From: Streptomyces antnestii
GTDB taxonomy: Bacteria; Actinomycetota; Actinomycetes; Streptomycetales; Streptomycetaceae
Length of the DNA: 64,000 bases
Direction of reading: 5' to 3'
NCBI RefSeq assembly: GCF_004005495.1
Contig: NZ_RZYA01000010.1
Coordinates: 62,001 to 126,000, forward strand
Within the stretch, counting starts at the first letter, position 1; each line of letters begins with the position of its first letter. The position numbers and the translations under genes were made by a program. The notes beneath the pieces are model-generated. The model had not been told where the DNA came from. It did not search any database and saw nothing but the letters and a program-made list of their open reading frames with translations. This document shows, piece after piece, positions 17,868-22,326 of the stretch.

Positions 17868-20408
17868 TCAGTCGCGCAGGTCCACCAGGAGCGGCGGCGC
17901 GTGCTCACCCCGGACCGTCGTCAGGGACAGGACGGCGTGGCCGGGCGGTACGCCGTGCGCCAGTTCCGAGGCGGACCAGCGCTCGCGTTCGACCTGGCGG
18001 ACGGTGACGGCGTCCGTCGTGACGGCCTTCCCCGTGACGAACTTGCGCAGCGCGTGCAGGGCGCGGGTCATCGGCTGGGCGGCGAACACGGTGTGCTGGG
18101 CGACCTCGGTGGTCTCCACCCACTCGGTCCCCCACGCCTCGGCGAACCGCCGCCCGTCCCACGTGGTGACGCCCGCGAACGCCATCCGGCAGCCGGCCGC
18201 CGCGTACAGCGGCCCCTGCAGCGCCTCCGGCACCTCGCCGATCGTCCGCAGGCCGAGGACGACGCCCGCGTTCAGGGACCGCAGCCGCTGCACGGCGCGC
18301 ACGCTCTCGGCGCTGAGGGTGCGTGCGGCGTCGTCGAGGACGAGACAGGCGAAGTGCGTACGAGAACCGCCGCGCGCGACGTACGAGAACTGGGCGAGCA
18401 GCAGTCGGGCCAGGAGCCGCGACGCCTCCTCGTGGCCCTGCTCGGGCAGGTCGACGCGGACGCTGACCGGATGATGGGCGACCGCCCGCAGCGAGAAGGC
18501 GCGCCCCTCGCCGCCGGTGTCGAAGAAGTCGGCGAAGGCCGGTCGGTCGAGCACGGCAAGCCGGTCGGCGAGCGCCGGACCGGGGTCCCCCGCGGTGCCG
18601 GTCTGCCGTGTTCTGGCATCGAGTTCGCGGCGCATGGCCGCCTGTCCTTCCGCCGCTTCCAGCCGCTCCCTGAGTGCGTCGACGGCGGCCGGCTCGCCCT
18701 CGAGCAGTTCGCGCAGCACGGGGACGGACGGGAAACATCCGTGCACGCTGCGGTAGGGGCCGAGAAGTTGGGCGAGGGCGGTGGCCCCGCGCCGGGTGTC
18801 GACGGCTTCGAGGTCACCGATCAGGCCCTCGGCGAGGAAGGCGGCCGCCTCGTCCGGGTCGGCGCAGCCCGCGTACAGGTCCAGGTCGTACGCGGAGGCC
18901 GGGTCGCCCGGCCTGATCACGACGTCGTACGCGGCGTCGGGCCCGAGGTCCGTGCCGGCCGCGCACACGGCGACGACCGCTGCCTGCCCGGTCAGCGACT
19001 GCAGGGTGAGCGCCTCGACGACGGGGCGCATCAGGCGGCCGGTCTTGCCGGATCCGGAAGGGCCGACGGCGAGCAGAGACGTGCCGAGCAGGGAAGGGTC
19101 GAGGGCGGCGTGGGCGCCGCGGACCGGATACGGGTTGCGCTTGTCCTCGGCGTACCGGCCGATCCTGAACTGGCCGACGAGCAGGTCGTGGGTGGCGGTG
19201 CGGACCGGCAGGTCGCGCCGTCCGGAGGGGTGGGCCCAGGCCGCGGCGCCGTGCCGGGCGACGGTTTCGGCGAACGAGGCGCGGCCGGCCGGTCCGGTGA
19301 CGGTCTGCCAGACATGGCTGACCCGGGCGCAGTCGACGTCGTTCATACGCCCGCCGAGCAGTTCGGCGGAGAGCAGGTCGGCGGCCTCGTCCTGGCCCGC
19401 GGCGCGCAGGGCGGGCCAGTGCGCGCGGCCGGTCGTCCCGGCGGGCGGGGGCGCGGCGGCGGGCTCGCGGGACGGACGGTCGGGCGCCGGGCCGCGGCCG
19501 GCACGCAGCGCCGCCCACCAACCGCCCGCACGGGCGAAGGGCCACAGCACGGCGAGCGTGATCGCGGTGTAGATGACGTCGGTGACGACCGGGGAGGCGA
19601 ACACCTCGTAGCCGCCCGCGACGAGGGCGACCAGGGAAAGGACGGGGCCGACGACGGGCAGCGGCCGCCAGTCGAGCCCGAGGGCGCCCGGCCAGACGAA
19701 GACGAGGGCGGCGACGGCGCCGAGCGAGGCGAGCAGGGCACGGGACGGCTGCCGGCGGCGCACCACGAAGTGCCGGATGCTCTCGGGCCAGGAGCCGAGC
19801 CTGCCGACCGTGTAGACGAGGGCGGCGAAGACCACACCGTCGTAGACGACGAGGGCGTCGGAGCCCTGCCACTGCTTGGGCTGGCTACTGCCGCCCCACC
19901 ACCAGTCGCCCGGGGTGAACAGCTTCAGCAGGGCCCACTGGTACGGGACGGTGCCGTGCCGCCACATCGACCAGAACACCAGGCCGAGCAGGGTCGAGAC
20001 GACGAGGCCGAGCACGCGCCTGCGCCGGGCGGCCTCGACGTCCGGCTCGGGCTCCGGCGGCCGGTGGCCGAGGCGCCAGATGCCCGGCGCCGCCTCGGGG
20101 CGGGGGGCGGCCAGCCACTCGGCGACGGAGGCGGCACGGCCGGCGCCTCCGGCGGACGCCCCGGGGGCGCCGGGTGCGTGTGCGGGGCGGGGCGGCGGGG
20201 CGGCGGGGCGAGCGGGTGCGCCGAGGCGGGCAGCCGTGCCGGAGCGGACAGGTGCGCCGGGGCCTGTTCCCCCGTTCGGCGTCCCGGACGCGGACGAGGG
20301 CGGTCCGGCCGGTGGCGTCGGCGGCCCCGCCGGGCGCGGCACCGGTGTGGCGTGTGTGCCACGAGCGTCGTGCGTGTCGCCGGCGCCGTGCGTGCCGTCG
20401 GTGTCCAT
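17868..20408 (-). CDS. Membrane-anchored TraG/VirD4-like ATPase
   Basis: An 846-residue protein. Residues 1-110 are a Pro/Ala/Gly-rich disordered tail. About 130-300 hold several hydrophobic segments (VLGLVVSTLLGLVFWSMW; VVFAALVYTVGRL; LLASLGAVAALVFVWPGALG). The cytoplasmic part has Walker A GPSGSGKT at about 447-454 and a Walker B-like FACLVLDDAARTL near residue 690. The fold of conjugative coupling or secretion ATPases is suggested, but no relaxase or secretion genes are nearby. It is transcribed divergently from gabT. The true role is unknown; Streptomyces carry such proteins as conserved chromosomal genes. Confidence 0.8.
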   Translation of the reverse strand: MDTDGTHGAGDTHDARGTHATPVPRPAGPPTPPAGPPSSASGTPNGGTGPGAPVRSGTAARLGAPARPAAPPPRPAHAPGAPGASAGGAGRAASVAEWLAAPRPEAAPGIWRLGHRPPEPEPDVEAARRRRVLGLVVSTLLGLVFWSMWRHGTVPYQWALLKLFTPGDWWWGGSSQPKQWQGSDALVVYDGVVFAALVYTVGRLGSWPESIRHFVVRRRQPSRALLASLGAVAALVFVWPGALGLDWRPLPVVGPVLSLVALVAGGYEVFASPVVTDVIYTAITLAVLWPFARAGGWWAALRAGRGPAPDRPSREPAAAPPPAGTTGRAHWPALRAAGQDEAADLLSAELLGGRMNDVDCARVSHVWQTVTGPAGRASFAETVARHGAAAWAHPSGRRDLPVRTATHDLLVGQFRIGRYAEDKRNPYPVRGAHAALDPSLLGTSLLAVGPSGSGKTGRLMRPVVEALTLQSLTGQAAVVAVCAAGTDLGPDAAYDVVIRPGDPASAYDLDLYAGCADPDEAAAFLAEGLIGDLEAVDTRRGATALAQLLGPYRSVHGCFPSVPVLRELLEGEPAAVDALRERLEAAEGQAAMRRELDARTRQTGTAGDPGPALADRLAVLDRPAFADFFDTGGEGRAFSLRAVAHHPVSVRVDLPEQGHEEASRLLARLLLAQFSYVARGGSRTHFACLVLDDAARTLSAESVRAVQRLRSLNAGVVLGLRTIGEVPEALQGPLYAAAGCRMAFAGVTTWDGRRFAEAWGTEWVETTEVAQHTVFAAQPMTRALHALRKFVTGKAVTTDAVTVRQVERERWSASELAHGVPPGHAVLSLTTVRGEHAPPLLVDLRD

Positions 20409-20637: not shown

Positions 20638-21972
20638 ATGAGCGCAGTCCCGCAGGAGCGCCGCGTCGTCACCGCCATCCCCGGTCCGAAGTCGCAGGAG
20701 CTGCAGGCCCGACGTACCGCCGTGGTCGCGGCCGGCGTGGGCTCCACGCTTCCGGTCTTCACCGCCCGCGCGGGCGGCGGCATCATCGAGGACGTCGACG
20801 GCAACCGCCTCATCGACTTCGGTTCCGGCATCGCCGTGACCTCCGTCGGCGCCTCCGCCGAGGCCGTCGTGCGCCGCGCGTCCGCCCAGCTGCAGGACTT
20901 CACGCACACCTGTTTCATGGTCACGCCGTACGAGGGCTACGTGGCCGTCGCCGAGGCGCTGGCCGAGCTCACGCCGGGTGACCACGCCAAGAAGTCCGCG
21001 CTGTTCAACTCGGGCGCCGAGGCCGTCGAGAACGCCGTCAAGATCGCCCGCGCGTACACCAAGCGCCAGGCCGTCGTCGTCTTCGACCACGGCTACCACG
21101 GCCGTACGAACCTGACGATGGCGCTGACCAGCAAGAACATGCCGTACAAGAACGGCTTCGGTCCGTTCGCGCCCGAGGTCTACCGCGTGCCGGTGGCCTA
21201 CGGCTACCGCTGGCTGACCGGTGCCGAGAACGCCGGCGCCGAGGCCTCGGCCCAGGCGATCGACCAGATCACCAAGCAGATCGGCGCCGACAACGTCGCC
21301 GCGATCATCATCGAGCCGGTCCTCGGCGAGGGCGGCTTCATCGAGCCGGCGAAGGGCTTCCTGCCCGCGATCCGCAAGTTCGCCGCGGACAACGGCATCG
21401 TCTTCGTCGCGGACGAGATCCAGTCCGGCTTCTGCCGCACCGGCCAGTGGTTCGCCTGTGAGGACGAGGGCATCGTCCCCGACCTGATCACGACCGCCAA
21501 GGGCATCGCGGGCGGTCTCCCGCTCGCCGCCGTGACGGGCCGCGCCGAGATCATGGACGCCGCGCACGCGGGCGGCCTGGGCGGCACCTACGGCGGTAAC
21601 CCGGTGGCCTGCGCCGGTGCGCTCGGCTCCATCGAGACCATGAAGGAGCTCGACCTCAACGCCAAGGCGAAGAACATCGAGGCCATCATGAAGGCCCGCC
21701 TGGGCACCATGGCCGAGAAGTTCGACATCATCGGCGACATCCGTGGCCGTGGCGCGATGATCGCCATCGAGCTGGTCAAGGACCGCGCCACCAAGGAGCC
21801 GCACCCGGAGGCCGCCGCCGCGCTCGCCAAGGCCTGCCACCAGGAAGGCCTGCTGGTCCTCACCTGCGGCACCTACGGCAACGTGCTGCGCTTCCTGCCC
21901 CCGCTGGTCATCGGTGACGACCTCCTCAACGAGGGCCTCGACATCATCGAGACCGCCTTCGCGGGTGTCTGA
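20638..21972 (+). CDS. gabT: 4-aminobutyrate aminotransferase
   Basis: A 444-residue class III PLP enzyme that moves the amino group of GABA to 2-oxoglutarate, giving succinate semialdehyde. Seen are SGAEAVENAVKIARAYT (phosphate/PLP binding), the cofactor-stacking FDHGYHGRTNL, the PLP-contacting Asp in VFVADEIQSGFCRTG and the Schiff-base Lys in TTAKGIAGGLPLAAV (about residue 288). The ATG at 20638 has CAGGAG nine bases upstream; an earlier in-frame ATG at 20500 reads low-complexity sequence and is rejected. It is divergent from the ATPase gene and upstream of the 6C-like RNA. Confidence 0.95.
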   Translation: MSAVPQERRVVTAIPGPKSQELQARRTAVVAAGVGSTLPVFTARAGGGIIEDVDGNRLIDFGSGIAVTSVGASAEAVVRRASAQLQDFTHTCFMVTPYEGYVAVAEALAELTPGDHAKKSALFNSGAEAVENAVKIARAYTKRQAVVVFDHGYHGRTNLTMALTSKNMPYKNGFGPFAPEVYRVPVAYGYRWLTGAENAGAEASAQAIDQITKQIGADNVAAIIIEPVLGEGGFIEPAKGFLPAIRKFAADNGIVFVADEIQSGFCRTGQWFACEDEGIVPDLITTAKGIAGGLPLAAVTGRAEIMDAAHAGGLGGTYGGNPVACAGALGSIETMKELDLNAKAKNIEAIMKARLGTMAEKFDIIGDIRGRGAMIAIELVKDRATKEPHPEAAAALAKACHQEGLLVLTCGTYGNVLRFLPPLVIGDDLLNEGLDIIETAFAGV

Positions 21973-22049
21973 TCGCTTGCGTGACTTCAGGTAACGGTCA
22001 GGGCGTGTGAAGAACGTGTGCGGGGCCCATGACGGGTTACCGTTCCGAC

Positions 22050-22078
22050 TGTCAGACGTCCACACCCTGCCGTACGGT
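22050..22078 (+). promoter_or_regulatory. Possible promoter for the 6C-like RNA transcript
   Basis: A TGTCAG hexamer is separated by 17 bases from TACGGT, which fits the TAnnnT pattern of a vegetative -10 box. Transcription would begin near 22085, giving an RNA of about 225 bases ending at the T-run at 22311. This is weak motif evidence only; a start nearer the C-loop hairpins is equally possible. Confidence 0.35.
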
Positions 22079-22203
22079 TTCTGCAGATGAGAGAAACACC
22101 CCGCCCACAGGGGACTGTGGGCGAAACCGGGTCGGAGCCTCCCCAGCCCCGCCCTGGTCGTGCCCTCGCGCACAAGCCCGGAGCTTCCGGCTCCGGAACT
22201 CCT

Positions 22204-22311
22204 CACCGATCGGATGGCCGCCCGCCCCAAACCCCCCGGGGCGTGCGGCGAGCCGATCAGGTCGGCCGCCTCGGAACTACCCCCCCTGTTCCGGGGCGGC
22301 CGACCGTTTTT
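22204..22311 (+). ncRNA. 6C-type small RNA (two C-loop hairpins plus terminator)
   Basis: Two adjacent hairpins each carry a run of cytosines in the loop, the hallmark of the actinobacterial 6C RNA. Hairpin 1 spans 22208-22258 (pairs 22208-22213/22253-22258, 22217-22221/22245-22249, 22223-22228/22238-22243) with loop AAACCCCCC. Hairpin 2 pairs 22260-22277 with 22288-22305 (one G-T mismatch), with seven Cs at 22280-22286, and is followed by five Ts at 22307-22311, so it doubles as the terminator. The 5' end is uncertain. Further hairpins lie upstream at 22103-22122 and 22178-22196, and a possible promoter at about 22050-22078. I recall an S. coelicolor small RNA next to the gabT homologue. Confidence 0.8.
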
Positions 22312-22326
22312 CATCACTGGGCCGCC

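Follow-up and report, generated by a model that had tools for sequence, protein, structure and literature searches.

Introduction

Scr5676 (Rfam family RF02832) is a small RNA of Streptomyces coelicolor that is encoded beside gabT. Its transcription has been reported in S. lividans (PMC8079986), and in S. ambofaciens it was predicted as a UTR and as a non-coding RNA, on different days (PMC8388888). A second family that bears on the present locus is the 6C RNA (RF01066), which includes the mycobacterial 6C/B11 RNA and is characterised by tandem hairpins with C-rich loops.

The locus described here lies in a 64-kb stretch of DNA (64,000 nucleotides, referred to as the window throughout), in which a structured RNA sits between gabT and a PAP2 gene (PF01569). 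An initial annotation had proposed that the element is a 6C RNA beginning near position 22204, through which the PAP2 reading frame had been extended in error. The comparisons collected below point instead to a longer Scr5676 RNA and make it fairly probable that this RNA has a dual function: it would form the leaderless start of the PAP2 mRNA and, upon a stop of transcription at the last C-loop hairpin, a small RNA.

Layout of the locus and promoter region

The features of the locus are collated in Table 1.

Table 1. Coordinates of the features at the gabT–PAP2 locus (positions in the window).
Feature	Position	Strand	Basis and remarks
gabT, 4-aminobutyrate transaminase	20638..21972	+	TIGR00700 match of 595.7 bits, over cut-off; the family match suggests the start
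Conserved box CGTGTGAAGAACGTGTGCG	22004..22022	+	upstream of the inferred RNA promoter; candidate regulator site
Inferred promoter	22049..22078	+	CTGTC at 22049-22053, -10 TACGGT at 22073-22078; not mapped
Whole structured RNA (Scr5676 plus C-loop 3' half), ~227 nt	22085..22311	+	Rfam match, fold, conservation; ends inferred
Scr5676 as modelled by Rfam RF02832	22085..22214	+	130.2 bits, E 2.5e-27, whole model 1-130
PAP2 reading frame, 282 aa	22087..22935	+	open reading frame from the ATG near the RNA 5' end, RNA region included
Predicted peptide MRETPRPQGTVG... of the frame	RNA region		
Helix P1	22088-22094 with 22200-22205	+	Rfam structure; 5' strand includes U and G of the AUG
C-loop hairpin 1	22208..22258	+	loop AAACCCCCC at 22229-22237, C6; fold, covariation
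C-loop hairpin 2	22260..22305	+	loop TACCCCCCCT at 22278-22287, C7; fold, covariation; likely terminator stem
GTTTTT tail, directly 3' of hairpin 2	22306..22311	+	sequence

The box at 22004-22022 is highly conserved in relatives, is present as one exact copy in the genome and is possibly a regulator site; it contains GTGTG twice, 11 bases apart. Divergent from gabT, a minus-strand frame of 846 aa (17868-20408) carries a Walker-type stretch (GPSGSGKTGR). This frame gave no match in the NCBIfam search and is probably the neighbour named SCO5677 in S. coelicolor, where insertions in SCO5677 increase the production of actinorhodin (PMC6585502). SCO5677, with its antibiotic phenotype, was considered as the PAP2 gene of the locus and was rejected, because its published description is that of a membrane protein that binds ATP/GTP.

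The -10 element TACGGT (type TAnnnT) is conserved and lies 6 nt upstream of RNA nt 1; (T/C)AnnnT was found at this place in 172/174 loci. A consensus scan of the promoter region returned no sigma-70 match. From the position of the -10 element and the 5' end of the Rfam match, we infer a transcription start at 22085, which gives the RNA the 5' end AGATGAGAG (AG-ATG) and places ATG 22087 at nt 3, where 163 of the 174 loci likewise carry an ATG. Two promoter types were observed at the place of 22070-22084: TACGGTTTCTGC forms the majority in loci with the PAP2 gene in frame, and TAGGTTCTACCC the majority in the rest.

Assignment of the RNA to the Scr5676 family

In a scan of the window against the whole of Rfam, Scr5676 was the sole match over threshold (gathering threshold of RF02832: 56 bits). 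The initial annotation was right to place a structured, conserved RNA in the interval from gabT to the PAP2 gene, and the S. coelicolor small RNA that it mentioned at the gabT homologue does exist and is scr5676 itself. The upstream half (22085-22214, 130.2 bits) had been missed; in all likelihood the 5' end of the RNA lies close to 22085 and not to 22204. Scr5676 is present in 136/150 genomes of the genus and in 79/150 of a family sample, and tblastn placed gabT upstream of it in each of the 79 loci so examined.

Membership in the 6C family, by contrast, was not borne out: the Rfam 6C model scored 26.2 bits in the window against a cut-off of 47, and at most 30.4 bits, likewise below the cut-off, in every relative scanned. 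The 6C RNA of the genome is located on another contig (G000:C40:3366-3442, L001 1501-1577, 51.5 bits). Two further assignments were discarded, namely Scr3202 (RF02833; 24.4 bits over 22172-22262, cut-off 52) and the remaining weak Rfam matches (ar7 and others), all of which were under their cut-offs.

A covarying stem (RNA nt 124-128 with 170-174) uses bases that Rfam folds as a small terminal hairpin, for which reason the Rfam model appears to be truncated. Judged from fold and conservation, the C-loop hairpins would represent the 3' half of one Scr5676 RNA of about 225 nt, extending from ~22085 to ~22311; the fold of 22085-22311 has a z-score of -8.8. Helix P1, which closes on the start codon, is 89-99% paired per pair in the relatives, mostly through invariance (pairs 4-121 and 5-120: 95-98%).

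The two C-loop hairpins

The 6C assignment had been founded on a T5 tail preceded by a pair of hairpins, one with a C6 and one with a C7 loop, and these features are real. On folding, 22204-22311 reaches -77.2 kcal/mol, compared with -46.9 +/- 3.65 kcal/mol for shuffled sequences (z -8.3, 0/200 shuffles). When the 3' half was aligned among 53 relatives, 98.1% of the cells were paired and 13 of the 27 pairs had changed on both sides, a number equalled in 0/500 shuffles; in slid controls, pairing dropped to 30-50%. The hairpins follow directly 3' of the Scr5676 domain in nearly all of the 174 relatives. With a model of the 3' half, a single copy was found in the genome, and among 246 genomes of the class matches were obtained only in the genus of the window, under strict filters that may miss weak members in related genera.

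In about 15 loci, another stem, located further 3', has taken the place of hairpin 2, and a C7-C9 loop is still present. The loops thus outlast an exchange of the stem, which suggests that they are what selection acts on. Replaced stems were observed, for example, in L018, L021, L030, L032, L041, L050, L092, L096, L098, L099, L113, L125, L136 and L154.

The window shows the features of an intrinsic terminator, i.e. the GC-rich 18-bp stem of hairpin 2 followed by GTTTTT; the terminator scan, the loop limit of which was 8, did not contain hairpin 2 in its list. Termination at this hairpin is uncertain, because a true U run is absent in most relatives, the tails of which are mostly weaker.

Conservation of the reading frame through the RNA

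The PAP2 frame is open through the element, as had been noted, from 22087 to the stop codon, and the PF01569 domain maps to the portion downstream of the RNA. The view that translation of the RNA is an annotation error and that the PAP2 start needs correction is probably wrong, as most relatives keep the frame through the RNA: among the 168 loci with a downstream PAP2 gene, this gene is in frame and open from the ATG at nt 3 in 124, and otherwise arranged in 44. This distribution was weighed against the reading that the element is a purely non-coding small RNA with a terminator, that PAP2 translation starts at GTG 22327 or 22330, both of which are in frame in the window, and that the open frame is a by-product of high GC content. 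The availability of these GTG codons and the strong covariation at the RNA level speak for it, as does the fact that loci with a broken frame, or with no PAP2 gene nearby, still have the RNA. Against it, no ATG, GTG or TTG is present from nt 215 to the PAP2 core in 57 of the 124 in-frame loci, as compared with 1/44 of the others, and most of the downstream starts that do exist lack a Shine-Dalgarno-like match (such matches were few in either class and do not inform on the difference between them).

A further point against it concerns the PAP2 promoter motif. In 34 of the 44 out-of-frame loci, an in-frame ATG or GTG is preceded at a distance of a few bases by a -10-like motif, which is absent from 121 of the 124 in-frame loci (present in 3). 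Motifs of this type, e.g. CAAGCTG and GAAGCTG upstream of the PAP2 start, look like leaderless PAP2 promoters. The PAP2 proteins with such a motif begin just before the first membrane segment and have no N-terminal extension, and the enzyme can thus do without it; this dispensability is a further point in favour of a non-coding RNA.

In order to avoid circularity, the 174 loci were grouped by the PAP2 motif and not by the frame, which gave 131 loci without the motif and 43 in which the motif was present or a PAP2 gene was not found. An open frame leading from nt 3 into PAP2 was present in 121/131 of the former and 4/43 of the latter. The change in length of nt 3-222 relative to the reference was a multiple of three in 122/131 motif-less loci and in 18/43 others, the latter value being near chance (Fisher p 9e-12, relatedness not corrected for). 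On the gabT tree, four strongly supported independent contrasts between the in-frame and the own-promoter state were obtained (13 on the best tree); the strongly supported ones were too few for significance in a test with tree-independent pairs, and the statistical weight is therefore below what the raw counts imply. With parsimony, the root of a weakly supported tree takes the in-frame state, which would indicate the direction of change between the two states only tentatively. Third codon positions within the RNA had a weak excess, 41% for the in-frame loci and 35% for the remainder (p 0.08), on which we did not rely. Taken with these limits, the preservation of the frame where PAP2 has no other promoter makes a purely non-coding RNA unlikely, and a dual-function RNA is preferred.

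In two loci (L112 and L131, RNA nt 195 onwards), the C run of loop 2 has a length of 8 instead of 7, which puts PAP2 out of frame, and an own motif is lacking; the extra C would stem either from an error in sequencing or from slippage at the C tract inside the coding frame.

Retention of the RNA without the frame

The RNA fold persists in the 43 loci that have an own PAP2 motif or in which PAP2 was not found, including 6 loci with no PAP2 gene within the stretch examined. This observation bears on the converse reading, according to which the transcript is simply a leaderless mRNA for PAP2 whose 5' coding region happens to be structured, and the small RNA is a stable 5' fragment of it with no regulatory role. 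Leaderless starts do account for 17-21% in Streptomyces (PMC8079986, PMC4895711), and 12 previously listed S. coelicolor small RNAs reach into coding sequences (PMC4681348). Earlier S. coelicolor small RNAs have also been found to resemble 5' UTRs (PMC3765725), and scr5676 may or may not belong to these sets. A mere fragment is nevertheless rather improbable, for the structure and the C loops are still there in loci whose PAP2 gene has its own promoter and a different frame, or was not found nearby, and C loops reappear upon replacement of the stem. The retention of the RNA without the frame and of the C loops in new stems suggests that one stretch would serve two functions, those of RNA and message.

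A second, diverged copy of the 6C RNA, which the tandem pair of C-rich-loop hairpins and the weak 6C score would suggest, is highly improbable and was rejected on the sub-cut-off scores here and in every relative scanned and on the true 6C RNA elsewhere in the genome (51.5 bits), and in all relatives the C-loop hairpins are joined to the Scr5676 domain.

Proposed mechanism and implications

The structure, the open conserved frame and the retention of the RNA upon loss of the frame emerge from sequence comparison, and the transcript ends, termination, coupling to the ribosome and targets in trans are inferred. In the dual-function model, a polymerase starting at 22085 would either stop at hairpin 2, releasing the small RNA, or read through to give the PAP2 mRNA. 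If a ribosome engages the 5' AUG and trails the polymerase, it would unfold the hairpins and thereby favour read-through. If no ribosome loads, the RNA would fold, P1 would mask the AUG, the last hairpin would terminate transcription, and the small RNA would be freed; it might then act in trans, the C-rich loops base-pairing to G-rich ribosome-binding sites in the manner suggested for 6C RNA. The published record on Scr5676 fits this model and is not proof of it.

More tentatively, and with appreciable doubt, it may be supposed that a regulatory RNA gene became, possibly repeatedly, the first coding segment of its neighbour and was kept as such where PAP2 is without an own promoter, so that loading of the ribosome would decide between small RNA and membrane phosphatase.

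If the dual-function model is true, Scr5676 has been catalogued by half only, with the C-loop 3' domain missing from Rfam, and the RNA is also protein-coding in most Streptomyces. A single sequence would then be under the constraints of a covarying RNA and of a reading frame, and the lineages with uncoupled roles would serve as built-in controls. The trimming of such N-terminal extensions as annotation errors could, in that case, be wrong.

Comparison with known systems

The family itself is already known: the RNA of the window is alike to Scr5676 of S. coelicolor in sequence, structure and position beside gabT. The C-loop 3' domain and the apparent coding role, as far as they can be read from sequence, would be new; the Rfam model ends at 22214 and is without the C-loop half of about 95 nt present here, and no coding role for Scr5676 is stated in the literature searched. 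With the 6C RNAs, including mycobacterial 6C/B11, the element shares two tandem hairpins with at least six C per loop; it differs from them in its stems, in the 120-nt structured domain upstream and in being in frame with a protein. C-rich loops are likewise a property of Scr3202, the match to which is below the cut-off of that family. Dual-function RNAs, and small RNAs that arise when transcription of a 5' leader is attenuated, likewise draw either a short RNA or a longer, translated transcript from one promoter; in the case described here, the small-RNA region would itself, together with its terminator, be translated from a leaderless start as the N-terminal part of a membrane enzyme.
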